From a virus, in IMG/VR virus record IMGVR_UViG_3300022690_000487, positions 1-46,814 of that record: a stretch of DNA of 46,814 nucleotides, one strand, 5' to 3'. The notes beneath the pieces are model-generated. The model saw nothing but the letters and a program-made list of their open reading frames with translations, searched no databases and was not told the DNA's origin. Made by a program: the position numbers and the translations under genes. This document shows, in pieces, positions 4,138 to 26,316 of the stretch (positions within the stretch are counted from its first letter, which is position 1; every line of letters begins with the position of its first letter).

Positions 4138-4142
4138 ACACA

Positions 4143-11271: not shown

Positions 11272-11416
11272 CTATGTAGTGACAGGAAAACCCTGTTAAA
11301 CCTATCACCACATAAATAACTATTTCCGTTTGAGTATCGGGAACAATTACTATTTTACAGATTTTCAACTGAACGCATTAGTATTTCACTGTCACGTATA
11401 TTCGGCTGTGAGGTTT
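11272..11416 (-). ncRNA. Conserved structured RNA domain, copy 1 (leader L3)
   Basis: Homologous to 24723-24873 on the other strand. Both begin AAACCTCACA. The block 11396-11354 is 35/43 identical without gaps to 24747-24789 and includes AATACTAATGCGT. After about 25 nt, 11328-11306 is 17/23 identical to 24816-24838. The domain ends in a 15-bp helix (11315-11301 with 11286-11272) that stays paired in both copies although bases differ. About 35 nt separate it from the ATG at 11236. No protein is encoded in it. Confidence 0.7.
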
Positions 11417-11462
11417 ATAAAACAGTCTTTCGGACATACCCGACTTCGGTAGAGTAAAACTT

Positions 11463-11562
11463 GTTTAACCGCTTTAAACCTAAAACCTGACTCTTCAGTC
11501 TTTCGCAATCCAGCCATCATAGCTCTAACGGCTAGGCAGGTAAGGGATTCTAGGATTAGTAT
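11463..11562 (-). other. Additional hairpins in leader L3
   Basis: Between the pseudoknot and the conserved domain the RNA can form several small stems: AGCC/GGCT, GACT/AGTC with a GAAG loop, and GTTTAA/TTAAAC around AGCGG. These may sit within a junction closed by ACCTG/CAGGT. The region looks structured and has no credible frame; the exact fold is uncertain. Confidence 0.35.
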
Positions 11563-11654
11563 CTAACTCACATATTATCTGATCCAACAACCGTCTATTG
11601 TTGAAGTTTGGTTTATTTTCTTTGAATCCTAAAAAACACCGACCCAAAGGGCAG

Positions 11655-11742
11655 AAAAAAAGGATTACTGATTTTAGCCCGCAAGAACCTTTATGTTTCA
11701 GTAACCCTAATTTTTTGTTTAAAGTCGTTCGATTCTTGCGGG
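11655..11742 (-). ncRNA. H-type pseudoknot with U-tract in leader L3
   Basis: P1 is CCCGCAAGAA (11742-11733) with TTCTTGCGGG (11687-11678), 10 bp perfect. P2 is AGGGTTACTGA (11708-11698) with TCAGTAATCCT (11671-11661), 11 bp with one U-G. Order P1-P2-P1'-P2', then seven U (11661-11655). It starts about 9 nt after the predicted transcription start. Confidence 0.65.
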
Positions 11743-11757
11743 AATCATTATGTAATA

Positions 11758-11789
11758 CAAATGTAGTCATAATTTTAGTTAATTACAAG
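11758..11789 (-). promoter_or_regulatory. Promoter of leader L3
   Basis: CTTG (11789-11786), 20-bp spacer, TACATTTG (11765-11758; exact TAnnTTTG). The predicted start near 11751 is just upstream of the pseudoknot. The promoter overlaps the start of a spurious 81-codon frame at 11525-11770, which is why that frame is not called. Confidence 0.55.
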
Positions 11790-12043
11790 TTTTTATCAAT
11801 ATCATCTATTTCGCAATCATTTGGAACATAATCGGTTTTTGTTACATCACTAATCCAAAACTGTCTCACTGGAAATTTACCTTTTCCATCCCATCCATGA
11901 ATTATGTCTAGTTCAATAGTCCTTTTTAAATAATAATCTGGATTGTTCCGTGTATACACAACCCACTCTATTAAAGGTACATTATCTGAAGTACAGTTTA
12001 GCACGAATTGCCATACGTCTTCGATTCCATGTATTGTGTCCAT
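11783..12043 (-). CDS. Hypothetical protein, 86 aa
   Basis: Trp-rich alpha/beta protein (GIEDVWQFVLNCTSD; LIEWVVYTRNNPDYYLKRTI) with an acidic tail. Last gene of the replication operon, ending just upstream of the L3 promoter. No family recognised. Confidence 0.65.
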   Translation of the reverse strand: MDTIHGIEDVWQFVLNCTSDNVPLIEWVVYTRNNPDYYLKRTIELDIIHGWDGKGKFPVRQFWISDVTKTDYVPNDCEIDDIDKNL

Positions 12044-12057
12044 AATCTTATTTTTAG

Positions 12058-12462
12058 TTAAAATTTCAATAATTCATCCATAACCTCTTCTTTCGATGTT
12101 CCCAGAAATTTCCAAACCTGATCTAATACCGCATTATAAAGATTTCCGAAAGCTACATCATCCATACTACTAAAAGAGATGCTGTCAGCTTCATAGCTTA
12201 CCTCTCCTGTGATATAATTGTTTTCCTCATGCAAGTACCCTGCTGATTTAATTAAGTCCTTCCTGAGCTTGTCAGGGTCTTTGTAATTATCCTGATTCTG
12301 AAAGGCTAAATTGATTAACGCAAAGAATTTACGATGCAAAAGCACATTACGCGGAATCTTTATATCAATTTCAACGGTATCTCCTAACTTAATCTTTGGA
12401 TAAGCTTTGCATTCTCCTACCGGGCGGAGTCCTCCGAGTGTTTTTTGGTACAGGCTTTTCAT
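12058..12462 (-). CDS. DUF1367-like phage protein
   Basis: A 134-residue protein matching the pattern of DUF1367: LGGLRPVGECKAYPKIKLGD followed by VEIDIKIPRNVLLHRKFFAL and a helical part. Such genes lie among phage recombination and replication genes; function undetermined. Start at the ATG at 12462, which overlaps the upstream stop (TGATG). Confidence 0.7.
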   Translation of the reverse strand: MKSLYQKTLGGLRPVGECKAYPKIKLGDTVEIDIKIPRNVLLHRKFFALINLAFQNQDNYKDPDKLRKDLIKSAGYLHEENNYITGEVSYEADSISFSSMDDVAFGNLYNAVLDQVWKFLGTSKEEVMDELLKF

Positions 12463-12719
12463 CAATCCTGTTTATGCTGTTTTGCCCATTCCAATGCATC
12501 GCGCCAACATTTCAAACGGCTAAACCTACCCCATCCAGCGGTGTTTACAGCATTTTTTGAAAAAACCACGGGGTCTTTTTTGCAGGAAATTTCTAAATAA
12601 CAATCTTCTGTATGCCCATCATTAAATACGTGCTCTATCCACTGCCATCCATATAACGACATTGCACTTTGTATGGTAGCTATTTCTGTTTCTTCGGGTG
12701 TTAATAATTCGTTTTTCAT
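12462..12719 (-). CDS. Hypothetical protein, 85 aa
   Basis: Begins with a charged helix (LTPEETEIATIQSAMSLYGW) and has a Trp/Cys-rich core (DCYLEISCKKDPVVFSKN; SRLKCWRDALEWAKQH). Stop overlaps the DUF1367-like gene's ATG. No family recognised. Confidence 0.65.
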   Translation of the reverse strand: MKNELLTPEETEIATIQSAMSLYGWQWIEHVFNDGHTEDCYLEISCKKDPVVFSKNAVNTAGWGRFSRLKCWRDALEWAKQHKQD

Positions 12720-12723
12720 AATC

Positions 12724-13068
12724 TCATTTCTTTAGTTCCTGTTTAATCCACTTTAATTCTGATATTCTTATTTGTGTTCTTTCAGATTTCACAACCATAC
12801 TTAACACTTCCCTATCAGTGTTTTTACCAATGTTTACTAGATAATGTGTGATTTCTTTTTCAAGCAATTCAACTTCTTTTTTATACGAATCAATTCTTTT
12901 ATTTATTTCATCCGTTACACTCTCCACCTTAGCGGTGTGGTAATGTTCTGCAAATCTCATTGCAGACTCAAATTCATCATCTACGCAAACAGCCCCACCA
13001 ATTCCAGTTCTTGCCTTTTTAGCCTCCTCTATGCGGATAGTGTACCACAAATCTTTTAATTTAGTCAT
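12724..13068 (-). CDS. Coiled-coil hypothetical protein, 114 aa
   Basis: Mostly one long amphipathic helix region (VESVTDEINKRIDSYKKEVE then LLEKEITHYLVN) with a small N-terminal domain. Start in the ATAAAACTATG context. No family recognised. Confidence 0.65.
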   Translation of the reverse strand: MTKLKDLWYTIRIEEAKKARTGIGGAVCVDDEFESAMRFAEHYHTAKVESVTDEINKRIDSYKKEVELLEKEITHYLVNIGKNTDREVLSMVVKSERTQIRISELKWIKQELKK

Positions 13069-13098
13069 AGTTTTATTTGTTAAGTTCTGTTAATTTAT

Positions 13099-13431
13099 TT
13101 ACAATTGTTCTCCGTTTATTGACCTACTTAATTTTGATTGTAAATCCATTCCTATCATAAATAAAGCTTCCTCAATACTGGTAATTATCCAATACTTTAC
13201 CCCTACGCTCTCAATCCTTTCCTTACATTTCTGCTCGTCATCAGTTAACTTTCTCCGGCTTGGCACTAAACTTCCATCTTTAATTTCCGCTGAATAAGTT
13301 TTTCCTTTATGGTAAACAATTAAATCGAATAACCCCGGAACAGTATGCACATGTTCTACCACTGCTCCGGCTTTTCTTAAGGCTTCCACAATCTCTGGTT
13401 GGTTGCGATCAATTTTAGCTGCTCTTCTCAT
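13099..13431 (-). CDS. VRR-NUC-type nuclease
   Basis: A 110-residue minimal PD-(D/E)xK nuclease. It has the RRAAKIDRNQPEIVEALRKA entry helix, GLFDLIVYHKGK carrying the metal-binding Asp, and YSAEIKDGSLVP carrying the ExK pair. KLTDDEQ and a final strand-helix (VKYWIITSIEEALFM) follow. Phage VRR-NUC proteins act as small structure-specific nucleases in replication or recombination. In the replication operon. Confidence 0.75.
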   Translation of the reverse strand: MRRAAKIDRNQPEIVEALRKAGAVVEHVHTVPGLFDLIVYHKGKTYSAEIKDGSLVPSRRKLTDDEQKCKERIESVGVKYWIITSIEEALFMIGMDLQSKLSRSINGEQL

Positions 13432-13543
13432 CCTTCTTAGCTTTTAAGTGAGTCGAGAAACAGGGCTTGCAAACCCAATATTCCCCGATTAGTGTATACA
13501 GGTTTTTAGAATTACACTCGCATTTTGTTTGTTTTTCTTTCAT
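13415..13543 (-). CDS. Mini zinc-ribbon protein, 42 aa
   Basis: A short frame, MKEKQTKCECNSKNLYTLIG then EYWVCKPCFSTHLKAKKDE, with Cys pairs CEC (8-10) and CKPC (25-28) that could hold one zinc. It overlaps the start of the VRR-NUC gene by 17 bases. The paired cysteines and tight packing support a real gene; function unknown. Confidence 0.65.
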   Translation of the reverse strand: MKEKQTKCECNSKNLYTLIGEYWVCKPCFSTHLKAKKDEKSS

Positions 13544-13547
13544 AACG

Positions 13548-13853
13548 TTATATTTTACTGAAAAATAAGGAAACATCAGAAGATACGGGGCTCATCGTTA
13601 TTCCCTCGAAAATCACCACTAATTCTTCTAAGCTATCAATCCACCTAAAAGCTACAGCAGTATATTTTCCTTGTCGCTGTTCAGCATATCCAATGTAAAA
13701 ACTTTCTTGGTAGTCAGTTTTAATGGGGGTATTATAGAATAAGCAAACACCATTCTTTACCCAATAACTCATGTTTTCAAAAAACGGGAATTCACATTTT
13801 CCATTGTCTTTAAAATCAAGTCCTTTTAAAATATCAGTGGTTAATATAGTCAT
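13548..13853 (-). CDS. Hypothetical protein, about 101 aa
   Basis: The likely start is the ATG at 13853 (MTILTTDILKGLDFKD), preceded by an AT-rich CATAATTTT-type context. The frame stays open to an ATG at 13934, which would add a basic 27-residue N-terminus; that start is less likely. The protein is beta-rich (NMSYWVKNGVCLFYNTPI; SFYIGYAEQ). No family assigned. Confidence 0.6.
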   Translation of the reverse strand: MTILTTDILKGLDFKDNGKCEFPFFENMSYWVKNGVCLFYNTPIKTDYQESFYIGYAEQRQGKYTAVAFRWIDSLEELVVIFEGITMSPVSSDVSLFFSKI

Positions 13854-13935
13854 AATTTTCTTTTTTCGTTTTCGTGTTTTTATCTTCTTTCCCCAAAATC
13901 CTTTTTCTTTCCCCCATACCGTAAATTCCTGCATT

Positions 13936-14045
13936 ATGATTTAGTTAAATGAATCATTTTACTTACCTTATAAGCTGCTTCAATATCAATCCTTACTCCG
14001 TTGCTGTCTCAAGACTGTAATGCTCTGGGGTTGGTTTCTCCTTTT
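13936..14045 (-). pseudogene. Coding-like remnant interrupted by UGA
   Basis: One frame reads like protein on both sides of a single TGA (KKGETNPRALQS, stop, DSNGVRIDIEAAYKVSKMIH), ending in TAA just before the next possible ATG at 13934. It has no obvious start codon. It may be a decayed or truncated gene, or a fragment of an in-frame UGA gene. Weak evidence. Confidence 0.3.
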
Positions 14046-14270
14046 TTATTCAGATAAAAATTTATCCAATTCATGCATGATTATATTTTCCATATTAGCG
14101 GCTGAAGACCCATTATATTTGCGCGCTGCTTCCTGCATTTCCCCTAAATCCATATCAAAAGGCAATTCATAATCTTGCCAAATTTCTTCACACATATCTA
14201 TTGGCACATAATCTAAACAATCCGCCATAAAGTGTGCAATCCTCATATATCTTAATTCTTGTTTATCCAT
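14046..14270 (-). CDS. Acidic hypothetical protein, 74 aa
   Basis: Helical acidic protein (YMRIAHFMADCLDYVPIDMC; MENIIMHELDKFLSE). Start in the AAAACTATG context, four bases after the upstream stop. No family recognised. Confidence 0.65.
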   Translation of the reverse strand: MDKQELRYMRIAHFMADCLDYVPIDMCEEIWQDYELPFDMDLGEMQEAARKYNGSSAANMENIIMHELDKFLSE

Positions 14271-14274
14271 AGTT

Positions 14275-14679
14275 TTAGTCTTTTAGTTTATCAATTTCCT
14301 CACTCAATTTCCGTAATTCCTTATTCTTTTCAATCAACAAATTTGCTATATAATTATAATCCTTTTCATTTGCCTTGCTCATTTCCCACATGGTTTGATA
14401 ATATGTTTTCTTGTGTTCAACATCGGCAAAATTATTAAATAGTTCCTGATGATTTCGGAACATTTTTATAACCACAAAAACTCCTTCTTTAAATTTATTT
14501 GTTTTATCCGTATGCTCAGTTACGTTATCCACAATGTGTTTCCAATTGCCTAACACTATTCCGGCATTTCTTAAATCATGCTGATAATTAATTATTTTCG
14601 TTAAATTACTTTCTTCCTGTAATAGTTGAAAATCATCAATTGCCTGATCCTGTAATTTTTCTTTTTCCTCCTTTTTCAT
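14275..14679 (-). CDS. Helical hypothetical protein, 134 aa
   Basis: Charged, helix-rich protein ending in a coiled-coil (IEKNKELRKLSEEIDKLKD). The start overlaps the stop of the 14676-15044 gene. Between the helicase and nuclease genes; no family recognised. Confidence 0.65.
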   Translation of the reverse strand: MKKEEKEKLQDQAIDDFQLLQEESNLTKIINYQHDLRNAGIVLGNWKHIVDNVTEHTDKTNKFKEGVFVVIKMFRNHQELFNNFADVEHKKTYYQTMWEMSKANEKDYNYIANLLIEKNKELRKLSEEIDKLKD

Positions 14680-15044
14680 TTGATTGTATTTATATCAATT
14701 GCAAGTCCTTTTTCAATGAGTCCGAAAATATCGAAATGATAACCTACCAAAAGAACTATTATCCTATACGGTGTAACCGCAATATTTTCTAATGAAATAT
14801 CGTGTTCCAAATGAAAATTACCCAATGGATCGTTTTCTTTTAGAAACTCATAAACGTTTATATTTTGCCCATAATGCTCAATCTCTTCTGTGAGATCGGA
14901 CAGGGGGCGCATGATTGGTTTACATCCATGTATCAAGTATGATGCTATATTTACGTCATTTAACGGCTTTATTTCTTTCCTGTCCAACATCATCAGCCCA
15001 TAGGGCAAATATGGTGCAAGGTGTTTTAATTCTAGTGTTTCCAT
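14676..15044 (-). CDS. Hypothetical protein, 122 aa
   Basis: Pro- and Leu-rich N-terminus (HLAPYLPYGLMMLDRKEIKP), and a C-terminal hydrophobic helix (IIVLLVGYHFDIFGLIEKGL). The general look recalls small proteins next to replication genes in Bacteroidota phages. No family assigned. Start in ATAAAACTATG context, 17 bases after the helicase gene. Confidence 0.65.
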   Translation of the reverse strand: METLELKHLAPYLPYGLMMLDRKEIKPLNDVNIASYLIHGCKPIMRPLSDLTEEIEHYGQNINVYEFLKENDPLGNFHLEHDISLENIAVTPYRIIVLLVGYHFDIFGLIEKGLAIDINTIK

Positions 15045-15061
15045 AGTTTTATTATTTTAGT

Positions 15062-16039
15062 TTAAAAAGGAAGGTCCGAATTTTCAGGGTCCGTTATTTG
15101 TTCAATATTGTTTTCGTGATCCTCAAATTTATTACTCATTCCTCCGTCCGGTTGAATAGTTTCAATATCCTCCATTTGATCAAACGCATAAACTCTTTTT
15201 CCGAAATCAGGATAGTAAAACTTTTGTAGTTTAATATCAAATTCCAGTGTTATCATTCCGGTTTTACCCACAATTCGGGGTTTAATCTTTTGAAAATATA
15301 TATCGTATTCAATACCCTCCTTTTCCTCTTTGTGGATACTTATTACATTTCTTGCATTATTAGCCCATTCCGAACCGCCCATTAAATCGTAAATATCAGG
15401 CGGTTTCAAATTTCCCTGAGCATTAAAGTTTTCCTTTGTAGGTTTTGATGGGTGGATAATTGTGAAGAAATGAATCTTGTGTAAATCTGCTAACTCATTT
15501 CTATAGCTCAATACATCTGCCAGATAACCGGGACCAGTTTCTACATGATTCATATAATTCCAACTATCAATAGTGGCAGTGCTGTAGTTATTTTCAATTG
15601 CATACTCCCAAAACTCTTTCGGGGTTGGTCTTTGCAGCCTTCCTTTTCTATCCTTTTCTAATTCCAGGATGTTAAACTTTTCCACTATCCGATACAATGC
15701 AGGGGAAACTTCCGATTCCTGTATTAAATTCTGATAGCGTTTATCAAATGTTTTTCCGGTTTCTTTCTGGATTAGATGTGAGATTACTTCCTCCGGTTTT
15801 CCAGCATCAGGTAAATGTAAAAGATGGCGTATTCCATGCTTCTTAGTGAGGTTAAATAAAATTTCATTAGCTATTAGGGTTTTGCCAGAATAAGGATAAC
15901 CAGTGATGTCCGTAACGCCCGAAGGAAGGAATTTATAATGGTTATCTATTGGGCTAAAGCCAATGGAGTACAGTTTAATATCTTCTTTTAAATACTTAAT
16001 CATTTTTTCTTCTAAGTCCTCAAATTTCAATACCCTCAT
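15062..16039 (-). CDS. RecA-fold replicative helicase/ATPase (DnaB-like C-terminal domain)
   Basis: A 325-residue single-domain ATPase. Walker A GYPYSGKT is at 47-54 and a Walker B-like ATIDSW at about 155-162. A histidine/sensor motif (TIIHPSK) and QKIKPRIVGKTG near the end are consistent with the RecA/DnaB core. The family's N-terminal primase-binding domain is absent. The C-terminus is an acidic tail ending NSDLPF, like the tail of bacterial SSB. It follows the putative helicase-loader gene and is the strongest replication gene here. Confidence 0.75.
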   Translation of the reverse strand: MRVLKFEDLEEKMIKYLKEDIKLYSIGFSPIDNHYKFLPSGVTDITGYPYSGKTLIANEILFNLTKKHGIRHLLHLPDAGKPEEVISHLIQKETGKTFDKRYQNLIQESEVSPALYRIVEKFNILELEKDRKGRLQRPTPKEFWEYAIENNYSTATIDSWNYMNHVETGPGYLADVLSYRNELADLHKIHFFTIIHPSKPTKENFNAQGNLKPPDIYDLMGGSEWANNARNVISIHKEEKEGIEYDIYFQKIKPRIVGKTGMITLEFDIKLQKFYYPDFGKRVYAFDQMEDIETIQPDGGMSNKFEDHENNIEQITDPENSDLPF

Positions 16040-16663
16040 TTATCCGAACTTTTTGATTGATTCCTGTTTGCGCTTTAATTTCTGTTCTTTGGTTTCTTCT
16101 AAGGGTTGATCTTTTAATATTTTAGCAATCCTATTTCTGAAGTAAACACACTTATCTTCAAATTCCTTTTTATCATATTGGTTTCCGATATATGGTAATT
16201 TGAAATTGTTGAACAGCTCTGTAAATTTTTCATCCGATAAATTGAAATGTTCCTTAACCGCATTTACCATTCCATCATTTAAGAGATAATCTTCTATTAA
16301 GAAAAAATCTTTATTCCAGAAATTTACTATTTCTTCTTTACTCTTTACTCTTTCTTCTTTCTTCTTTCCTTCTAGGGTTCCTTCAAGGCTCCCTTCGAGG
16401 GTTGAATCCTTAAGTCTTTGGTTTTCAGCCTTTATATCCGCACCTAATTTACCAGTTAGCTTTGCGTCTATAACGAAATCCATCGTCTTTTTGTAAGTTT
16501 TGAAGTATTTTTCAACAATTTTCGAACGAAACTGAACGGTTTTACCTCTGTAATATCGAATTACATTGATCAAAAAGTCATTTAAATGCTTTTCATTCTC
16601 GAAGAATTCCTCGGCAATTTCAATGTCCTGAATGGTAATTTTTATGAAGTCTTTTTTTGGCAT
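16040..16663 (-). CDS. Putative replication initiator / helicase loader, 207 aa
   Basis: The N-terminal half is basic and helical, a central low-complexity Glu/Gly repeat ([20 protein letters not shown]) links to a C-terminal domain ([38 protein letters not shown]). The two-domain layout with a variable linker, directly upstream of the helicase, is typical of phage replication initiation/loader proteins in Bacteroidota. Functional call is by context. First gene after leader L4. Confidence 0.5.
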
Positions 16664-16666
16664 GTG

Positions 16667-16732
16667 GTAGATGTTTTGTGTAGATGTGGTTAAAAAGAGA
16701 GCCGGAGGTACATCTACGAAACCGCCCGGCCC
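16667..16732 (-). ncRNA. H-type pseudoknot in leader L4, next to the start codon
   Basis: P1 is GGGCCGG (16732-16726) with CCGGCTC (16705-16699), 7 bp with one G-U, followed by a U-rich stretch. P2 is GTAGATGT in the loop (16717-16710) with ACATCTAC (16687-16680), 8 bp perfect. A second copy of CATCTAC at 16673-16667, three bases from the ATG, is an alternative partner. Switching between the two would change access to the start codon. Confidence 0.6.
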
Positions 16733-16772
16733 TTTGATCTTTGAATGTAAAAGCGTTCAAACAATTACAACC

Positions 16773-16803
16773 CAAAGATACACATTTAATCGGTTAATTC
16801 AAA
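16773..16803 (-). promoter_or_regulatory. Promoter of leader L4 / replication operon
   Basis: TTTG (16803-16800), exact 19-bp spacer, TATCTTTG (16780-16773): full match to the Bacteroidota consensus. It overlaps the very end of the upstream gene. The start site would be near 16766, about 35 nt before the pseudoknot. Confidence 0.65.
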
Positions 16804-16804
16804 T

Positions 16805-17500
16805 TCATCTAAGTTTTTCAGCTTTACCATTTACAACTTGATAATTTAAATCAAACATCTGCACATAAATATCCGTAATATAATGTTCTTCTGGCAAAGA
16901 ATTAACGCTTTCCTCAATCCATTTATCCGATTTTCTTTTATGGTTAAATACACACTCTTTCATGTTCTTTGCCGTGCCATATGATACATTCAATATTTTT
17001 GATATTGAAGTAATTGGCAAATCTAATTTCCCATCATTGGTTATAATTCCATAGAAAAACCAAGTTCTTAAATCCAAATTTGTGTGTCCATAAAAGGTTA
17101 GTGCAAGTGGATGAAATACAAATGAGCAATCACAACATGATAGGGTTCTTGGCGTTTCTTGCCTTACAAACTTTTCAATTTTAAGCATTTTTGCTATAAT
17201 CTTATATCTGCCTGAAACAAAACCATTACTACTTTTACACTTAGGACATACAATTTTGTTTTCCAGAAAGTTTCTAACAATCGCAATAAACACTAATTGT
17301 TCATCTTTTGATAAAAACTTTTTCAAGGATAGAATAAACTTTTTCTCTTTTTTAGGTAGTGGCTTTTTAAAAACATGGTAATATTCTTTTAACAAATTAC
17401 TATAACATGCATTTAAATCAAATCGCTTTGTTTCAACATGGTCCATTGCTCTGTTTATGATGTGTTCATTAGCAAATATCTCCCTCATTCTATTCGCCAT
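16805..17500 (-). CDS. Transposase-derived zinc-ribbon/HTH protein lacking the catalytic domain, 231 aa
   Basis: Residues 85-180 look like the N-terminal DNA-binding part of IS1595/ISXO2-type transposases: zinc ribbon CPKC (85-88) and CCDC (122-125), FHPLALTFYGHTNLDLRTWF, then an HTH-like SISKILNVSYGTAKNM. The DDE catalytic domain is missing; the C-terminus instead ends after about 50 unrelated residues, and an 80-residue helical segment is added at the N-terminus. Probably an exapted DNA-binding protein, possibly a regulator. Last gene of its operon, next to the L4 promoter. Confidence 0.6.
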   Translation of the reverse strand: MANRMREIFANEHIINRAMDHVETKRFDLNACYSNLLKEYYHVFKKPLPKKEKKFILSLKKFLSKDEQLVFIAIVRNFLENKIVCPKCKSSNGFVSGRYKIIAKMLKIEKFVRQETPRTLSCCDCSFVFHPLALTFYGHTNLDLRTWFFYGIITNDGKLDLPITSISKILNVSYGTAKNMKECVFNHKRKSDKWIEESVNSLPEEHYITDIYVQMFDLNYQVVNGKAEKLR

Positions 17501-17512
17501 AATCTTATGGTT

Positions 17513-17896: not shown

Positions 17897-17916
17897 AGTT
17901 CTCTATTTTAAGTTAA

Positions 17917-18415: not shown

Positions 18416-18440
18416 AGTTTTATATTTAGTCCGTGTTTAA

Positions 18441-18878
18441 TTAATCTTCAGCATCAAAGTAAGTGATATACACTTTTTCGCCTATAAGAAATGCCTCTAA
18501 AACTTTTTCGTACATTTTCTTATAGGCTAAAGTACTATTTCCAATAGAGTGTTCAGAAACGCTTTGCCCAACCAATAAACATCCTGCCGTGTCGTCATCC
18601 GTATTTCCAATATGAATAAGTATCCATTTAAAGTTAGGAACATCCTGCAAATGCAACATGCCTTTATGAAAACCAAATTTATTTTTATATCTATTATGGT
18701 GACCACCCACAGTTCTTAATTTTATTTCATATTCCCCTTCTGGAATCCTCGTTTCTCCAAAAACTTTTACTGTCCTATGTTCATCTTCCAAAGTCCAACA
18801 TTCGAATTTACCATCAATGTAAAGCGCACCTATTGTAGTGTCTCCATTGTCTTTTAATCTAATTACTTTTAGTTTCAT
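18441..18878 (-). CDS. DUF5675-like protein (lysis-cassette, probable peptidoglycan-related)
   Basis: A 145-residue protein with the DUF5675 pattern: TIGALYIDGKFECWTLEDEH, TRIPEGEYEIKLRT, MLHLQDVPNFKWILIHIGNT then DDDTAGCLLVG. The H-I-G-N...GC pairing resembles L,D-transpeptidase-like active sites, so a role on the cell wall is plausible but unproven. It overlaps the holin gene by four bases, which supports a lysis role. Confidence 0.65.
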   Translation of the reverse strand: MKLKVIRLKDNGDTTIGALYIDGKFECWTLEDEHRTVKVFGETRIPEGEYEIKLRTVGGHHNRYKNKFGFHKGMLHLQDVPNFKWILIHIGNTDDDTAGCLLVGQSVSEHSIGNSTLAYKKMYEKVLEAFLIGEKVYITYFDAED

Positions 18879-19345
18879 TTGTCTTTATATTTGTTTTTAA
18901 TAAATTTTCCAACTTCTCTTAATCCAAAATATGCCCCTACTGTTGTAAGCAGTAATGAACCAAATAATGTTACCCACTGATCTTTTACATCCAGAACGTT
19001 ACAACTATCTAATACACATAATAATGTTACACTAAATAATAAATACAGAAGCGTTAATGGACGTACATTTTTACTTAGCCATGAATCGCTGTTCATGTCA
19101 ATTTCCCAACGTTTAGTTATTTCCTTTTGTTCTGCAATATCCTGATCCAGCTTTTTCAGGGCTAATTCTTTGTCTTCTTCCTCTAGCTCTTTAGAGCCCC
19201 TTATGCTTTTAGCAACGTTCTTTAACACATCAATGCCAGTAATGTCACCAACTACGCTTACAATGTTGCTCGCTAGGTTAGGAGCTTTCTCTTTTAAGAA
19301 TTTAACTACTCCCCAATCTTTAAATTTCTTTTTATTTTTACTCAT
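18875..19345 (-). CDS. Holin (3TM, GTA-holin-like)
   Basis: A 156-residue protein. It has an amphipathic N-terminal half and then RWEIDMNSDSWLSKNVRPLT, the signature of the 3TM holin family. Two clear membrane helices follow (LLYLLFSVTLLCVLDS; LFGSLLLTTVGAYFGL), with a basic tail. Holins form membrane lesions to release or activate lytic enzymes. Coupled by ATGA overlap to the DUF5675-like gene. Confidence 0.75.
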   Translation of the reverse strand: MSKNKKKFKDWGVVKFLKEKAPNLASNIVSVVGDITGIDVLKNVAKSIRGSKELEEEDKELALKKLDQDIAEQKEITKRWEIDMNSDSWLSKNVRPLTLLYLLFSVTLLCVLDSCNVLDVKDQWVTLFGSLLLTTVGAYFGLREVGKFIKNKYKDK

Positions 19346-19355
19346 GATTTTATTT

Positions 19356-19556
19356 TTAAATTATATTTTCGTCTTTTGCTATGCTTATAAGTTGAGCCAA
19401 ATTGCTTGCTCCAAGTTTCCTGAATTTCATCCTGATATTGTCCCTGTGAGAATCAACTGTTCTTATACTTATAAATAACTGTTCTGCAATCATTTTAGTG
19501 CTTTGTCCACTTACTATTAATTTTAATACTTGGATCTCCCTGGGTGTTAATTTCAT
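19356..19556 (-). CDS. Stand-alone LuxR-type HTH protein, 66 aa
   Basis: The whole protein is a GerE/LuxR DNA-binding domain (LTPREIQVLKLIVSGQSTKM; IAEQLFISIRTVDSHRDNIR), with no receiver or ligand domain. It overlaps the upstream mini-gene (ATGA). Likely a transcription factor for the lysis or late genes; its target is unknown. Confidence 0.8.
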   Translation of the reverse strand: MKLTPREIQVLKLIVSGQSTKMIAEQLFISIRTVDSHRDNIRMKFRKLGASNLAQLISIAKDENII

Positions 19557-19714
19557 TTTATTTCTTTAAGATATTCAAGTCTCGTTTTAACTGCCTCTCC
19601 TTTGCTTCCTATTGGCTTTATCCATGCATACACGCCCTTTACTTTAGCCACCTCCATAGGTTGTTCCTTTATCTTAAGTAATCCCTTAGGAGTAGTGTAA
19701 ATGGCTTTCTTCAT
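19553..19714 (-). CDS. Mini-protein, 53 aa
   Basis: MKKAIYTTPKGLLKIKEQPM...GVYAWIKPIGSKGEAVKTRL. Basic and beta-rich, joined to both neighbours by four-base ATGA overlaps, which is strong evidence for translation. No family recognised. Confidence 0.65.
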   Translation of the reverse strand: MKKAIYTTPKGLLKIKEQPMEVAKVKGVYAWIKPIGSKGEAVKTRLEYLKEIK

Positions 19715-20130
19715 TTTAAGAGTTCAGGGTTTTGGTAGATGTTTCCTATTACTTCTAGCGTTAATAGTCCACATTTCACAAAATCATATTCCCAATCAGA
19801 TTTGTTTTTTACATTTTGTCGATGCAACATCATGCAAGGATTTACAATATCATTTTTTATTAAACTTATAAGTTTTTCTTTTTTGAAGGTATCAATAAAA
19901 ACATAATTTCCTTTGTATATTTCAAACACGATATCTCCCTCATAAATTTCTTTCCCGTTCTTGTCTTTAAGACCTGTATACGATATTAAAATAATATGTT
20001 CAGGATGTTCTCCAGTAGGCAAAACAGTTGATACAACCCTTCCGTCCGGTCTCACTAAAAAGTGTAATGGATTTATCCATCGTTTTGTTTTTGATTGCCA
20101 CGCCCTGAATTTTATCTCTCTGGTTTCCAT
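19711..20130 (-). CDS. YopX-family protein
   Basis: About 139 residues from the ATG at 20130 (METREIKFRAW), in the conserved AACTATG-like context; an upstream UUG is less likely. YopX hallmarks: REIKFRAWQSKTKRW, TGLKDKNGKEIYEGDIVFEI and EVIGNIYQNPELL. YopX proteins are widespread in phages of Firmicutes and Bacteroidota; function unknown. Confidence 0.85.
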   Translation of the reverse strand: METREIKFRAWQSKTKRWINPLHFLVRPDGRVVSTVLPTGEHPEHIILISYTGLKDKNGKEIYEGDIVFEIYKGNYVFIDTFKKEKLISLIKNDIVNPCMMLHRQNVKNKSDWEYDFVKCGLLTLEVIGNIYQNPELLK

Positions 20131-20134
20131 AGTC

Positions 20135-20371
20135 TTATTTATCAAGTTTTTCCTCTAATTTGCTTTTCTTGTCCAGTGATTTATAAACAGTCCTGTACTG
20201 CTCCTTTACCTGTTCCTTAAGTTCTACCCACTCTTTAGACTCTGGAAATTCTAATGTAGGATCATACCTTCGTGTAATCTCAATTTCGTCCCTGACTTCC
20301 ACCGGAATTTTTAACCAAGTGGTTTCCACCATAGTGCATTTTAGAGTTAGATTTGTTATTTTAGTTCCCAT
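20135..20371 (-). CDS. Hypothetical protein, 78 aa
   Basis: Beta-rich N-terminus (TKITNLTLKCTMVETTWLKI) and a charged helical C-terminus. Its ATG overlaps the ERF gene's stop, so it is probably translated with it. No family recognised. Confidence 0.65.
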   Translation of the reverse strand: MGTKITNLTLKCTMVETTWLKIPVEVRDEIEITRRYDPTLEFPESKEWVELKEQVKEQYRTVYKSLDKKSKLEEKLDK

Positions 20372-20913
20372 TATGCGATTTCTTTAAGATATTGCGTTTC
20401 GTTTGCTTTGCTCAATTTATAGTGTTCCCGAACATCCTTAACCGTTGCTTTCTTTTTAACAGCGTTTTCCCATTCTGGTGTACCAATATTAATCCACTCC
20501 TTATCATCATCGTCTGGATTAGTCTTTGTTTGTGGTTTATTGTTGGAGTTTGCCACTGGCTTTGCTTTGTTTCCATCGTCATCCTCTGCCTGAATAGCAA
20601 GTAAGGATTGCAAGGTATACCGCCTGTAATACGAGATACAGGAACCTATCTTTTGCGGATCTGTTAGATCAGGAAGTTTTAAACTGCTCCCTATGGATTC
20701 ATCACTTTCCAAATCGGTTATATTACTGTGTACTATGCCGTCTTTAATGGGCTGTGTAAGGATTAGATTATTCTTTTCCAGTAAAGGCTCCACGTGTTCC
20801 AATAAAGCGTTTATATCGAAGTATTGGCTATTATGAAATGGATTAGTTGAATCCTTTGAGATTTTACCAATCTCCTTTTTCACTGCTGCTATTTTTTTTA
20901 GTATTGCATTCAT
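20371..20913 (-). CDS. erf: ERF-family single-strand annealing protein
   Basis: A 180-residue protein from the ATG at 20913 (ATAAAACTATG context; an upstream UUG extension is rejected). ERF signature: DSTNPFHNSQYFDINALLEH, VEPLLEKNNLILTQPI, KIGSCISYYRRYTLQSLLAI, then EDDDGNKA. The C-terminal third is a linker and small domain. ERF proteins anneal complementary single strands in phage recombination. First gene after leader L5. Confidence 0.85.
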   Translation of the reverse strand: MNAILKKIAAVKKEIGKISKDSTNPFHNSQYFDINALLEHVEPLLEKNNLILTQPIKDGIVHSNITDLESDESIGSSLKLPDLTDPQKIGSCISYYRRYTLQSLLAIQAEDDDGNKAKPVANSNNKPQTKTNPDDDDKEWINIGTPEWENAVKKKATVKDVREHYKLSKANETQYLKEIA

Positions 20914-21085
20914 AGTTTTATCTTTTAATTTACCTTTAAAAAATAACCATCTGTCCTCCAAGTTGGAATACTTTCCTAATCATATTGTACCCGTTGCGTA
21001 GGAGCGCACCCACTTGTCAGTAGGTAATACAAGCCGTTTAAGTATCTCAACAGCAAACTAATCCCTTGGTGTGATTGTGATATGC

Positions 21086-21171
21086 CAATAGTTTGGTAAG
21101 AATTTGCATCTTACACCCAAATATACATGGACTCTAGCTAAGAGCGCGTCTTATTCCGCCACAATAAATTG
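21086..21171 (-). ncRNA. Degenerate tRNA-Leu-like element in leader L5
   Basis: A D-arm-like GGCGGAATAAGACGCGC close to class II (Leu) D-arms is followed by a shrunken stem-loop around TTAGCTA and a T-arm-like hairpin GTAAG-A-TGCAAAT-T-CTTAC. The flanks form an extended helix CAAT...ATTG / TTG...CAA with a 3x3 internal loop, paralleling the element at 3632-3705. T-loop position 55 and the anticodon stem are abnormal, so decoding is unlikely. Confidence 0.3.
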
Positions 21172-21199
21172 TAATACATCACTTGTTCGCCGTTAAGCA

Positions 21200-21237
21200 G
21201 ATGGTATTTCATTTATCCAAATACATCTTATCTGGAT
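21200..21237 (-). ncRNA. Weak H-type pseudoknot at the start of leader L5
   Basis: P1 is ATCCA/TGGAT (21237-21233 with 21219-21215), 5 bp. P2 is GATGTATTT (21227-21219) with AAATACCATC (21209-21200), 9 bp with one bulge. The stems are interleaved but share base 21219. Weaker than the other leaders; called mainly because of its position right after a promoter. Confidence 0.35.
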
Positions 21238-21239
21238 TA

Positions 21240-21271
21240 CTAATTTACTCAATTTAAGCGTATTTTCCAAT
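21240..21271 (-). promoter_or_regulatory. Probable promoter of leader L5
   Basis: ATTG (21271-21268), 20-bp spacer, TAAATTAG (21247-21240), one mismatch in each box from the consensus. It lies just inside the gap after the 21281-21577 gene and directly precedes the pseudoknot. Confidence 0.4.
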
Positions 21272-21280
21272 CATAACAGG

Positions 21281-21577
21281 TTAGTCTTTAAAGGTTTCCA
21301 ATGTCTTTTTAATCAGGTTATCAATTTTACATACGCTATTCATTAATTTCCTATTGTCTTGTTTAAGAAGGATAGGAAAAAATAATTTGTCCCGTACATC
21401 CCTTAATACAACAAGAGCGTTTTGGTCATTATCGGTTAGTTTCGGTTTCTGTCCCCTTGAAAGATAGTCGTCTGATTCAATGGGAAAGTTTCGTATGTGA
21501 ATCTTTCCATGTCCTTTTATGTCAACATAGCCCTCATTATCCTGTAACAATTTTGCTACTTCTTTTGATATTATCAT
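21281..21577 (-). CDS. Hypothetical protein, 98 aa
   Basis: Begins with a small beta domain (EVAKLLQDNEGYVDIKGHGK) and continues as a basic helical region. Last gene of the early operon, ending just before the L5 promoter. No family recognised. Confidence 0.65.
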   Translation of the reverse strand: MIISKEVAKLLQDNEGYVDIKGHGKIHIRNFPIESDDYLSRGQKPKLTDNDQNALVVLRDVRDKLFFPILLKQDNRKLMNSVCKIDNLIKKTLETFKD

Positions 21578-21581
21578 AGTT

Positions 21582-21824
21582 CTATTCGTTAATAAATTTT
21601 ACCGGAATACTCTCAAATAAGTCCTCTGTAGTTTTGAAAATAAGGTCTTCGTTGATTGATGGGCGGTTTCCTTCTATGGAATATTCAATAAATAATTCTT
21701 CTTTGTTAAACTGTCCGTTTTCAATTACTGATATTGCTATCTCATTTATCCTAACTTCTGTAATAGTTCCTTTGTCAAGAATTAACCCCCTATCTCCTAT
21801 ATTAAATTTAGTTTTGATTTCCAT
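21582..21824 (-). CDS. Small beta-rich protein, 80 aa
   Basis: IKTKFNIGDRGLILDKGTIT has the look of a small SH3/KOW-like barrel as seen in many phage hypothetical proteins; an acidic C-terminal part follows. Four bases upstream of the next gene. Domain call is tentative. Confidence 0.6.
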   Translation of the reverse strand: MEIKTKFNIGDRGLILDKGTITEVRINEIAISVIENGQFNKEELFIEYSIEGNRPSINEDLIFKTTEDLFESIPVKFINE

Positions 21825-21846
21825 TAGTTCTATTCGTTTAATTAAA

Positions 21847-21871
21847 CCCTTCTACCGATTTGATAGAAGGG
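21847..21871 (-). terminator. Terminator-like hairpin with alternative pairing
   Basis: Perfect 8-bp stem CCCTTCTA/TAGAAGGG (21871-21864 with 21854-21847) and a short U-run (UUUAAUU). An upstream AAACCCC (around 21874-21880) can instead pair with GGGTTT, and a 4-bp CCGA/TCGG is interleaved. It sits between the 21900 and 21582 genes, so it may partially terminate. Confidence 0.4.
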
Positions 21872-21899
21872 GAGGGGTTTTCGCGCTTTAGTCGGCTTC

Positions 21900-22088
21900 C
21901 TATTTTCCTTTGTTTACCCGGTCAACTAAGGATTCTTTACTACTAAAAGCAACCCCTCTTCCTTCTTCACGTCTAGTTGAATAATGATCATCATTACCCA
22001 TGTATCCTCTAACTAATTCTACATCTATAGAGCTTCCGTCTTTAGCTGTTTCAGTTGTGTGATTGTACTTGTTGTTGTTTTTTCCCAT
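21900..22088 (-). CDS. Hypothetical protein, about 62 aa
   Basis: Start at the ATG at 22088 (MGKNNNKYNHTTETAKDGSS), preferred because the longer frame runs into the upstream gene. Polar and disordered N-terminus, then DVELVRGYMGNDDHYSTRRE. No family recognised. Confidence 0.55.
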   Translation of the reverse strand: MGKNNNKYNHTTETAKDGSSIDVELVRGYMGNDDHYSTRREEGRGVAFSSKESLVDRVNKGK

Positions 22089-22102
22089 GATATTTATTTT
22101 TT

Positions 22103-22408
22103 TTATTCGTTTAAGTTTGTACATTTAAAAAAATTCTCAAAGTCCGCTTTGTGTTCCGGTATTTCGAAATATGAATTCAGTTCTCCACACATATTAAACC
22201 CATATTTATCCTCATCCATTGCATACTGTCCTAAGGTATGAGTATTCAAGTATTTCAAATCAAAGGAATCAAATGAGTGCTTAATCTGTAGGGTATTTTC
22301 AAAGGCTCCTACATTAGTAACTTTATACTCGCAGTCTTCTTTATCTGATATAATGATAACTTCATCCCACTTGATAATCGTTTCGAATACTGGTATTGGT
22401 TTATTCAT
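22103..22408 (-). CDS. Hypothetical protein, 101 aa
   Basis: Begins with strands (IPVFETIIKWDEVIIISDKE) and continues as a mixed acidic domain (DSFDLKYLNTHTLGQYAMDE). No family recognised. In the XRE-led early operon. Confidence 0.6.
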   Translation of the reverse strand: MNKPIPVFETIIKWDEVIIISDKEDCEYKVTNVGAFENTLQIKHSFDSFDLKYLNTHTLGQYAMDEDKYGFNMCGELNSYFEIPEHKADFENFFKCTNLNE

Positions 22409-22414
22409 CTTAAT

Positions 22415-22639
22415 TTATAAGGTTATATTTGGAGGATACAATACAATTTCTGTTGATGGTACTTTTTGCTCTTGTAATTCATTTTGAAACTCATCTGCTC
22501 TTACCTCATCTTTATCAATCGCAATCCTTGTTATGTAGCAATGTAATTTTATTCCGCTTTCGGTTTCTCCCTCCCAAACTCTTGCAGGAACGCCATCTAA
22601 ATTTGTAATTTTTGTTGTGCTTTCAATTGTTATTTTCAT
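22415..22639 (-). CDS. Hypothetical protein, 74 aa
   Basis: Start at the ATG at 22639 (MKITIESTTKITNLDGVPAR), in CATAATT-type context; an upstream extension would overlap the preceding gene. Beta-rich; a VWEGETESGIKLHCYITRIA core suggests a small sandwich. No family recognised. Confidence 0.6.
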   Translation of the reverse strand: MKITIESTTKITNLDGVPARVWEGETESGIKLHCYITRIAIDKDEVRADEFQNELQEQKVPSTEIVLYPPNITL

Positions 22640-22649
22640 AATTCCGATT

Positions 22650-22838
22650 TTAAAGTGATCCAATAAAGTTCCAATAATTAGCCTCTGATGCAAAAAGTTC
22701 TGATCTCTTGTGAGTAAACAGTTTTCTTTGTGGCTTACTAACCACATCCATCATTCCAAAGTCCATTTCCTCTACAGGCTCAATGATCTCAATCTCTTGG
22801 TTTCTTTCTGCTTTGAATTGGATTATGTAGTTTAGCAT
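22650..22838 (-). CDS. Hypothetical protein, 62 aa
   Basis: Short polar protein (KAERNQEIEIIEPVEEMDFG...SELFASEANYWNFIGSL) with no recognised motif. Preceded by an 87-base gap carrying hairpins and a TATTTAGC motif similar to other starts in this operon. Confidence 0.55.
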   Translation of the reverse strand: MLNYIIQFKAERNQEIEIIEPVEEMDFGMMDVVSKPQRKLFTHKRSELFASEANYWNFIGSL

Positions 22839-22870
22839 GATTGTCGTTGTTTTATATTTAGCAAGAAAGT

Positions 22871-22923
22871 ACCCCCATGTCGGAGAGGGTTAGCCGTCCG
22901 CAAGAATTTAGCGAAACTCACGG
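22871..22923 (-). other. Intergenic hairpins after the 67-aa gene
   Basis: Two possible stems right after the 22926 stop. The first is nested: CCGT/ACGG enclosing CGC/GCG (22923-22920 with 22897-22894; 22913-22911 with 22901-22899). The second is ACCC...GGGGGT around 22890-22871. No U-run follows, so a terminator is only a possibility; a 5' leader structure is the alternative. Confidence 0.3.
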
Positions 22924-22925
22924 AA

Positions 22926-23129
22926 TTATTTCAACTCCCTTTTAGACCCTATAAACGTGATGTAACATTCATTTCCTACATCGTCTAAAATTTTGAATGT
23001 CCTGTATACAGATTTAAGTGCCCTGTTTTCAATTTCTTTTTTTGCGTGTCCGGTAGCCGTGCTTCTGTCAAAGGTTGCTCCTTCCGTTCTGAATAAAGTG
23101 ATTCTGTTTCTTGTGATTTGATTTTTCAT
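22926..23129 (-). CDS. Hypothetical protein, 67 aa
   Basis: Basic protein (MKNQITRNRITLFRTEGATF) with a C-terminal beta/helix part (FKILDDVGNECYITFIGSKR). Its ATG is preceded by AAAAATTTAGCAAA, nearly the same leader as the neighbouring 23381 start. No family recognised. Confidence 0.6.
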   Translation of the reverse strand: MKNQITRNRITLFRTEGATFDRSTATGHAKKEIENRALKSVYRTFKILDDVGNECYITFIGSKRELK

Positions 23130-23156
23130 TTTGCTAAATTTTTAAGTGTTTATAAA

Positions 23157-23381
23157 TTATTTGATAAGTCCGTTGTTCTTTGCAAAATAAGCAACACACC
23201 AAGCTTGTTTTTCTGAAATTGACTTGTGGTTCATAACAGCCTTTTCTACGATGTCTGAACAAAAATGCCCTACCTCGTCAGCTTTTTGCATGATTTCACT
23301 CCATATAGGCAGAATAGCCATTGTTAAAGAGTGTCCGTTGCTGATGTCTTTGATTGATGTTTTGATTTCTAATAAGTTCAT
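23157..23381 (-). CDS. Hypothetical protein, 74 aa
   Basis: Start at the ATG at 23381 (MNLLEIKTSIKDISNGHSLT), with the AAAAATTTAGCATT leader. An upstream in-frame extension is rejected because it covers the promoter/operator at 23420-23450. Helical, with KSISEKQAWCVAYFAKNNGL near the end, a pattern I associate with small phage proteins of unknown role. First gene controlled by the XRE operator site. Confidence 0.6.
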   Translation of the reverse strand: MNLLEIKTSIKDISNGHSLTMAILPIWSEIMQKADEVGHFCSDIVEKAVMNHKSISEKQAWCVAYFAKNNGLIK

Positions 23382-23419
23382 AATGCTAAATTTTTGTTGT
23401 TGTTTGATTAAGTATACGG

Positions 23420-23450
23420 TAAAGGTAATACTTTGTTGCGTATTCACAAC
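23420..23450 (-). promoter_or_regulatory. Early promoter overlapped by an XRE operator
   Basis: GTTG (23450-23447), 19-bp spacer, TACCTTTA (23427-23420), one mismatch per box. The palindrome TGTTG-N8-CAACA (23434-23451) covers the -33 box. The same GTTG-N8-CAAC arrangement occurs at the XRE gene's own start. Confidence 0.55.
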
Positions 23451-23456
23451 ACTTTT

Positions 23457-23654
23457 TTAATCTTTTTTCTTTTTAATCAATTTCATACCCAACTTTTTTT
23501 CGAGTTTATCAATCATATCTGCGCCTATATTTGTGTGTGCACCGCTAAAATAACTAGATAATGTACTCCTATGTATACCAATGATTGCCGCTAAATCTAC
23601 TACGGAATAATTTTGTGCTTTTGCCTCTTTTTTTAGTACTTCGTGTTTTTTCAT
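23457..23654 (-). CDS. XRE-family HTH regulator of the early region
   Basis: About 65 residues from the ATG at 23654. It has an HTH region KAQNYSVVDLAAIIGIHRST then LSSYFSGAHTNIGADMIDKL, and a basic C-terminus. The palindrome GTTG-N8-CAAC directly abuts the ATG, and a second copy lies in the next promoter, so autorepression and control of the 23381 operon are likely. It also divides this operon from the divergent plus-strand gene at 23731. Confidence 0.75.
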   Translation of the reverse strand: MKKHEVLKKEAKAQNYSVVDLAAIIGIHRSTLSSYFSGAHTNIGADMIDKLEKKLGMKLIKKKKD

Positions 23655-23689
23655 GTTGCTAATATACAACATTTATTTAGGAATTCTAA
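23655..23689 (-). promoter_or_regulatory. XRE promoter with palindromic operator
   Basis: TTAG (23689-23686), 19-bp spacer, TATATTAG (23666-23659). The palindrome ATGTTG-N8-CAACAT (23653-23672) covers the -7 box and touches the start codon. The start site would be at the ATG, implying a leaderless mRNA. Confidence 0.5.
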
Positions 23690-23708
23690 TTAATTTCGTT
23701 TTACTTTG
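23676..23708 (+). promoter_or_regulatory. Possible promoter of the plus-strand 23731 gene
   Basis: TTTA (23676-23679), 21-bp spacer, TTACTTTG (23701-23708), one mismatch in each box. It lies just beyond the XRE operator, so the same regulator could affect both directions. Confidence 0.35.
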
Positions 23709-23730
23709 TCTTAAACTTAAGATAAAAATT

Positions 23731-24471
23731 ATGGAAGTAAATGAAATTTTACCAGTACTGGACATTGAGGTTTTAAAAGAAAAAGCCCAAGAGGCAGCTA
23801 TGAAAGGAGCCATTAATGAAATAGAAAGTTATTACAACTCCTATAACTCACCGTATAAAGAAGCTATAAAAGAACAATTAAGCAAGCAGGAGGCTAAATG
23901 GAGTATTTCATTGCCTGATATTTTATCAGTAATAAACGAGAGGTTAGTTGCTGAAATAGATGTGATTGCAAATAACGCAATTTCAAAAACGTTTGTTCCA
24001 ATGGTTAATAATTTCTTAACAAGGGAAAACAAGGAAATTAATTTTTCTTATGTTCTTCAAAGTTTCATAGATGTAATGAAGGATAACTTACCTTATGGAG
24101 AAATGATGGATGAGGAGAGTTTTTGTGTTGACGTTGAAAAAGACGATAGGCACGATTGGTTAAACGTTGAAATAGGTAGTGATAAGGGTGTTTATCGTAT
24201 CACATTTCACACATCTGGAAAGCCTAAAGAGGGAGAAAAGCAAAAATATCAAATACTATCATTACCAAGAACAGATTATAACAGCCTGAGCCAAGTGATG
24301 ACGCTTAAAGTTGATGGTGTTAGCCTTGAAATGCCTTTCACCAAAGATGTGTTAAAAGATGGATTTATGTCGTTTATCGCTAAGTTAATAATAGCAGATT
24401 CAGATATAACTATGGATTGTACAGATTTTCAAGAAGATATGTTTCCGACTGATGAATGTTATTGTGATTAA
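23731..24471 (+). CDS. Hypothetical protein, 246 aa
   Basis: Start at the ATG at 23731 (MEVNEILPVLDIEVLKEKAQ). Helical N-terminal 110 residues (one long helical bundle region), then an acidic beta-rich half (CVDVEKDDRHDWLNVEIGSD; YRITFHTSGKPKEGEKQKYQ) ending DECYCD. No family recognised. Divergent from the XRE gene, so it is a candidate early or lysogeny-linked gene. Confidence 0.7.
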   Translation: MEVNEILPVLDIEVLKEKAQEAAMKGAINEIESYYNSYNSPYKEAIKEQLSKQEAKWSISLPDILSVINERLVAEIDVIANNAISKTFVPMVNNFLTRENKEINFSYVLQSFIDVMKDNLPYGEMMDEESFCVDVEKDDRHDWLNVEIGSDKGVYRITFHTSGKPKEGEKQKYQILSLPRTDYNSLSQVMTLKVDGVSLEMPFTKDVLKDGFMSFIAKLIIADSDITMDCTDFQEDMFPTDECYCD

Positions 24472-24504
24472 TTTGGAAATCTAAGGATTATTACCGTATA
24501 TTGT
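24472..24504 (+). promoter_or_regulatory. Promoter of leader L6
   Basis: TTTG (24472-24475), 21-bp spacer, TATATTGT (24497-24504), two mismatches from TAnnTTTG. It begins at the end of the upstream gene and precedes the pseudoknot by about 17 nt. Confidence 0.45.
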
Positions 24505-24521
24505 AATTCATAATTGCAAAG

Positions 24522-24614
24522 CCCGACCAAGGAACAGCAAGAACTTATTTAAAAAATCCCGTCTACGGGTGGGCTATCTTTCAAACCTTGGTCGGGATGC
24601 GATAGCCCTTTTTT
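24522..24614 (+). ncRNA. H-type pseudoknot with U-tract in leader L6
   Basis: P1 is CCCGACCAAGG (24522-24532) with CCTTGGTCGGG (24586-24596), 11 bp perfect. P2 is GGGCTAT (24571-24577) with ATAGCCC (24602-24608), 7 bp perfect, followed by six U (24609-24614). A small hairpin CCCGT/ACGGG (24558-24569) sits inside. Same P1-P2-P1'-P2'-U plan as L2 and L3 on the other strand. Confidence 0.7.
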
Positions 24615-24722
24615 CGGCTTTAGAATGCTTCGTATTTCAGGGATAAAAGAATAAATACTAAACTTCAATCGTAAATGATTGTTGGATCAGGTAAACCGTG
24701 AGTGAGTTTAAACGAATTAGAA

Positions 24723-24873
24723 AACCTCACACCATCAAATAATATGCGTGGCAGTGTAATACTAATGCGTGCGGTTGAGAGCCCGTAAAGTTACAATGGT
24801 TTACGATGGGTTGATCGGAGATTGTTGTTAGCGTGGTGGTTCTTTTACTAGGTTTTTGAATCACTACGTTAAC
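24723..24873 (+). ncRNA. Conserved structured RNA domain, copy 2 (leader L6)
   Basis: Counterpart of 11416-11272. Its 3' part is a 16-bp helix, GTTAGCGTGGTGGTTC (24827-24842) with GAATCACTACGTTAAC (24858-24873), including three G-U pairs at positions that differ in the other copy. GTGAG/CTCAC (24698-24702 region with 24726-24730) may close a short upstream stem. It lies about 50 nt before the ATG at 24925. The rest of 24615-24722 looks structured but has no clear feature. Confidence 0.7.
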
Positions 24874-26307: not shown

Positions 26308-26316
26308 TTTATCTTA

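Follow-up and report, generated by a model that had tools for sequence, protein, structure and literature searches.

A structured leader RNA in two related copies in a phage genome, with a proximal hairpin motif found in other phage contigs

Two related leader RNAs in one phage genome

The IMG/VR virus record IMGVR_UViG_3300022690_000487 (46,814 bases, the entire virus record, referred to here as the window) carries a structured leader RNA in two related copies, each at a gene run of its own: copy A on the minus strand and copy B on the plus strand. We regard it as very likely that this leader RNA is real. Each copy comprises a distal core, which keeps its base pairs between copies, and a proximal 44-nt hairpin motif, which is also encoded between genes of other uncultured phages. 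We tentatively propose that these promoter-proximal RNAs control elongation by host RNA polymerase, in a manner resembling the put and nut sites of other phages.

A duplicated, structured non-coding RNA of about 150 nt had been described in a first-pass annotation of this DNA, and its coordinates and strands were verified. A blastn search of each leader against the window recovered the partner copy over the block already named (147 columns, 68% identity, E 2.5e-14), together with a further upstream block common to A and B (129 columns, E 7e-11); nhmmer within the window also returned two blocks (E 8e-12 and 1.5e-8). The ~150-nt block is therefore confirmed, but the related region is larger, extending over ~260 nt from the U-run of an upstream pseudoknot through the last hairpin. 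The A and B sequences differ at approximately one-third of positions, with all helices kept. No Rfam 15 family scored at or above its gathering score in the leaders, and nothing credible appeared at a relaxed E-value. No open reading frame (ORF) is common to both copies, in which indels disrupt the frame, so the conserved protein that the earlier reading had named as an alternative is not encoded here. The similarity of A and B, the kept pairs, the lack of an Rfam match and the lack of a shared frame support the interpretation as a duplicated non-coding RNA.

Structure of the distal core

The distal core and the stem that precedes it are located as follows:

11276..11402, minus strand: distal core, copy A, with an ACGUG/UGCGU hairpin, a GNRA hairpin, a 12-bp helix with bulged U (11353-11312) and a terminal hairpin (11311-11276)
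24741..24867, plus strand: distal core, copy B, with the 12-bp helix at 24790-24832 and the terminal hairpin at 24833-24867
11408..11571, minus strand: GUGAG/CUCAC stem, copy A (11571-11567 with 11412-11408), enclosing a structured insert specific to A
24698..24730, plus strand: GUGAG/CUCAC stem, copy B (24698-24702 with 24726-24730), with a short loop

Across the 128 columns of the core alignment (A 11402-11276, B 24741-24867), all 36 of 36 pairs are standard in both copies; 23 are unchanged between A and B, 6 have a change in a single partner and 7 in both partners, which agrees with the earlier remark that differences in the hairpin arms mostly preserve pairing. The same pairing result was equaled by 5 of 500 shuffles, and shifting the partner by 1-3 columns left only 29-55% of core cells paired. 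The shuffle result is supportive only, because the structure was derived from the same two sequences, and formal covariation statistics require more than two.

The core helices are the ACGUG/UGCGU hairpin, the 12-bp helix, in which the bulged U is conserved, and the terminal hairpin of 10-11 bp, for which a length of 15-16 bp had been claimed; a further hairpin has a GNRA loop (GAAA in A, GAGA in B). The folding energy of the whole core is only mildly low (z -1.9 and -1.7 for the two copies), with lower values for the terminal hairpins alone (z -3.1 and -4.0). Unpaired parts of the core are strongly conserved in sequence between the copies. An invariant AAACCU could pair with the loop of the last hairpin (AAACC with GGUUU), forming a possible pseudoknot. 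RNAalifold pairs GUGAG in both copies, and the GUGAG/CUCAC stem closes a loop of ~150 nt in copy A vs ~23 nt in copy B. A U-run is absent 3' of the distal core in both A and B.

The proximal motif in other phages

Covariance models were used for the distal core (R1) and for the proximal 44-nt motif (R2). The two copies of the motif in the window are both founders of R2:

11571..11614, minus strand: proximal motif, copy A, ACUUCAAC-loop-GGUUGUUGGAUCAGAUAA (R2 57.1 bits)
24655..24698, plus strand: proximal motif, copy B, ACUUCAAUC-loop-GAUUGUUGGAUCAGGUAA (R2 61.3 bits)

Other phages were searched for the proximal block using an exact 15-base pattern, which gave at least 119 matches, mostly within genes where inspected. 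Between genes, the sequence AAACUUCAAUC-loop-GAUUGUUGGAUCAGRUAA occurs in at least 12 other contigs of uncultured phages; for two of them (L250 and L256), the available locus ends close to the motif. The invariance of the 3' half is by construction, because this half was in the search pattern; the 5' half was outside the pattern scan, and its CUUCA part was used in the picking step. The arrangement ACUUCA, covarying hairpin, UUGUUGGAUCAGRUAA was found in 14 sequences, A and B included. Among these, 98.6% of hairpin cells are paired, in an alignment that had been fitted to the structure, and two hairpin pairs are variable (UA/UG/AU/CG and CG/AU). None of 500 shuffles reached the covariation score of the hairpin. 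The clearest compensated member is L178 (CAAAC/GUUUG), and the loop between the arms is 4 to 19 nt long in the alignment. The motif matches no Rfam family, and it constitutes new content together with the full leader layout. Its pattern was absent from 396 Bacteroidota genomes; R2 scoring in these genomes took few candidates per genome, and the absence by pattern is the more informative of the two results.

A same-strand ORF is encoded 110-350 nt 3' of the motif in L178, L197, L202, L219, L223, and L269. The genes that follow the motif differ, and include a chaperonin-like gene (L219, identified by eye), a GIY-YIG endonuclease (L178), and a sigma-like protein (L223 and L269). Hardly any protein of the other motif phages is also encoded in the window. 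At 6 of the 14 sites, compared with a background of 8%, the 110 nt upstream of the motif contain a TAnnTTTG element; four of these six are close relatives.

Sequence tracts also adjoin the motif in certain contigs. A G-rich purine tract (e.g., AUAUGGGAGGGGGGG or UAAGAGGGGAGG) comes after it in L178, L197, L223, L256, and L269, preceded in L223 and L269 by a hairpin with a U-rich loop. A long pyrimidine tract (TTTTTCTTTTCTTTCTTTTT) directly follows the motif in four related cases with opposite-strand genes (L200 ~6495-6560; L226 ~2500-2430; also L248 and L267).

Layout of the leaders

The domain had been placed downstream of a pseudoknot and just before the first gene of an operon. This order holds, although each copy is a whole leader in which a promoter-like site, overlooked before, comes first; the order of promoter-like site, H-type pseudoknot with U-run, shared domain and first gene is identical in A and B:

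11758..11788, minus strand: predicted promoter-like site, leader A, TTG-N20-TACATTTG, Bacteroidota type, exact match to the consensus
11655..11742, minus strand: H-type pseudoknot, leader A, S1 CCCGCAAGAATC/GGTTCTTGCGGG and S2 AGGGTTACTGA/TCAGTAATCCT, ending in a U-run
10946..11236, minus strand: first ORF after leader A, 96 aa, no family match
24472..24503, plus strand: predicted promoter-like site, leader B, TTTG-N21-TATATTG, degenerate, aligned in position with that of leader A
24522..24614, plus strand: H-type pseudoknot, leader B, S1 CCCGACCAAGG/CCTTGGTCGGG and S2 GGGCTATC/GATAGCCC, ending in U6
24925..25125, plus strand: first ORF after leader B, 66 aa, no family match

Both promoter-like sites adjoin the end of the upstream gene; the exact promoter consensus has 12 matches in the window, counting both strands, and the leader A site is one of these. 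Although alike in layout, the two pseudoknots are unrelated in sequence; in each, the second stem leads into the U-run. A scanner for this layout returned exactly two matches in the window, which are leaders A and B, with none in three mononucleotide shuffles or in 757,647 bases of related phages.

Copy A heads a minus-strand run that includes endonuclease-like, methyltransferase, and small-terminase genes, followed across the circular junction by the large terminase and structural genes, and interrupted by a few plus-strand genes. Transcription from leader A may proceed as far as the large terminase and structural genes. Copy B heads short ORFs without assigned function.

Repeated intergenic elements of related phages were considered as further copies of this RNA and rejected, as they are repeated promoters. 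In Bacteroides phage B124-14 (L166), an intergenic promoter-like repeat of ~115 nt that contains TTATATTTGC or TTAACTTTGC occurs at least five times (2752-2875, 4135-4246, 6348-6458, 24479-24588, and 37925-38034), and other related phages carry similar intergenic repeats.

A possible role in transcription elongation

We tentatively favor the view that each leader is a promoter-proximal phage RNA that exerts put/nut-like control over elongation by the host RNA polymerase; its occurrence in two related copies, one per strand and each at its own gene run, with compensatory changes between them, is consistent with this role. So are the common layout of the two leaders and the recurrence of the motif, with its covarying hairpin, in other phages, where it precedes unrelated genes and often follows a TAnnTTTG element closely, together with its absence by pattern from the 396 Bacteroidota genomes. 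The leader would act in cis on the host RNA polymerase that transcribes it: the nascent motif would fold shortly after transcription leaves the promoter and would alter elongation, by itself or together with a host factor, such that the polymerase could pass pauses and terminators in the operon, as with HK022 putL/putR. The distal core would then be an extension particular to this lineage, serving to strengthen or regulate the elongation effect, and the upstream pseudoknot and U-run would form a gate at which some transcripts end early. That the window shares so few proteins with the other motif phages would make sense if the RNA works with a host factor or directly with RNA polymerase. Protein-free RNA elements that alter transcription elongation are known in very few phages.

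A broader proposal, which we consider rather doubtful, is that ACUUCAAYC-loop-GRUUGUUGGAUCAGRUAA defines a new leader family in diverse uncultured (probably Bacteroidota) phages that alters elongation without a phage protein, and of which this phage carries an expanded form, with two leaders of at least ~450 nt gated by a pseudoknot-terminator. The combination of a compact, covarying, recurrent motif and a two-copy elaborated form would provide a searchable family and, if the proposal is true, open a testable question on operon control by Bacteroidota phages.

The HK022 put RNA suppresses termination through the β' zinc-binding domain of the polymerase. HK022 has two similar copies of put, one just after its promoter and the other ~270 nt after, and neither putL nor putR needs a phage protein to act on RNA polymerase (PMC9378689). 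As with put, the leaders described here are phage-encoded, sequence-related cis copies in the promoter-proximal leaders of two operons, although their promoters are predicted. However, put is ~70 nt long with two stem-loops, whereas the leader here, at ~450 nt, has a larger core as well as a pseudoknot-terminator, and its ~260-nt related region contains at least five helices; antitermination, known for put, is proposed here by analogy. The nut sites of phage lambda, in the leaders of two operons, consist of boxA and boxB and function with N. They are likewise a hairpin with a conserved single-stranded flank in phage leaders, although the conserved flank here is 3' of the hairpin. No N-like protein family was identified among the scanned proteins, although no search aimed at N or boxA was made. 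The EAR (epsC leader) RNA of Bacillales is a structured operon leader proposed to act on elongation. This RNA, listed as the epsC motif (PMC2864571), belongs to bacterial exopolysaccharide operons rather than phages, unlike the leaders here, which have no Rfam match.

Several observations weigh against control of elongation. Canonical terminators are few in the downstream operons, and in both A and B the U-run terminator is 5' of the conserved domain, not 3'. Homology to put was not detected: in HK022 26000-34000, a stretch within which the position of put is unconfirmed, the best R1 and R2 scores were at chance level (12.2 and 7.4 bits). Each of the other phage records has one confident motif copy, and in four contigs (L200, L226, L248, and L267) the genes that the motif transcript faces are encoded on the opposite strand, a poor fit to an mRNA leader.

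The opposite-strand placement in these four contigs is the reason that we count a trans-acting RNA among the main rivals. Under this explanation, which we consider unlikely, a small RNA, or an RNA serving as decoy for a host RNA-binding protein, would be processed from the leader or replace it. The contig L219 would also suit a small RNA, since it has, between the motif and the chaperonin gene, a terminator-like hairpin with a U-run as well as a second promoter-like site. However, a same-strand ORF follows the motif in A, B, L178, L197, L202, L223, and L269, no U-run terminates the distal core in A or B, and the two copies sit at two separate gene runs of this phage.

Similarly unlikely, in our assessment, is an attenuator or riboswitch-like leader, in which the pseudoknot/U-run terminator would be the switch, and the downstream domain would sense a ligand or protein, or set mRNA stability or translation. 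The two pseudoknot-terminators, which are unique to leaders A and B and conserved in layout rather than sequence, are in keeping with such a switch, as are the high conservation of unpaired core positions and the capacity of the motif 5' arm in L226 and L200 to pair instead with a strand leading into a U-run. However, no such alternative terminator pairing was found in A or B, where it was looked for; the terminator precedes the conserved domain, opposite to the usual order of aptamer then platform; and there is no riboswitch match in Rfam and no common function among the downstream genes. If the leader is an attenuator or a small RNA instead of an elongation control element, it would still represent a phage RNA family outside Rfam.

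It is quite improbable that a phage regulator of the sigma-like or Q-like type binds the motif, whether as RNA or as DNA. A diverged sigma-like protein family, with weak matches to Sigma70_r4 (sigma70 region 4) and to Q-like proteins, is encoded in six motif phages (L223, L269, L200, L226, L248, and L267), with one clear and one weaker match in ~107 other pattern loci and 18 related genomes; its gene is the first after the motif in L223 (4682-4131, minus strand) and L269 (3553-2963, minus strand). However, the window contains no member of this family, four of the six phages that encode it are closely related, and a loop length varying from 4 to 19 nt is easier to reconcile with an RNA hairpin than with a DNA dyad.

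Ordinary paralogy, namely a recently duplicated intergenic or decayed coding region without RNA function, would agree with a core found in only two sequences, from which its structure was derived, but is very improbable given that every helix is kept despite the divergence of the copies, that they share no open frame, that the pseudoknots are conserved by form and not by sequence, and that the proximal motif is common to other phages.

Searches for relatives of the distal core

The distal core was not found in the 396 Bacteroidota genomes, 50 whole relatives, and other loci searched. The exact core pattern (AATACTAATGCG) gave no matches and then 19 matches in viral contigs, all judged to be chance, and 16 chance matches in genome contigs. 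R1 gave two weak matches in the 396 genomes, which were rejected because one sits in a sugar-epimerase gene and the other overlaps a short opposite-strand ORF and a terminator-like hairpin. R1 matches in the 50 relatives, 76 loci, and others were weak only, and those checked (L089 and L313) fall in coding sequence. A search with the flanking protein revealed no related loci among viral contigs, flanking proteins had no matches in phages, and isolate phages gave chance matches only. A group I or II intron (Rfam silent), a protein-coding origin (no shared open frame), and an attC-like site (5' side misfit) were each set aside, as was possible mimicry of the 16S rRNA 3' end by UUGGAUCA, which follows a hairpin.

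The phage record and its likely host

The record has an exact 144-bp direct terminal repeat (window 1-144 and 46671-46814), which indicates that the genome is probably complete, and either circular or terminally redundant; if circular, its length would be ~46.7 kb. An Rfam tRNA match (39.5 bits) at window 3741-3871 on the minus strand, which a long extra region extends to 131 nt, was not reported by ARAGORN, and a second tRNA-like sequence at ~3700-3640 on the same strand seemingly lacks the anticodon arm. An IS1595/ISXO2-type transposase gene is located within the phage genome (window 6224-7153, minus strand). The nearest relatives of the transposase are IS1595 copies on Bacteroides and Phocaeicola plasmids (~40-42% identity), and the named phages nearest in terminase infect Bacteroides fragilis (~48% identity); based on these affiliations, we infer that the phage has a Bacteroidota host.

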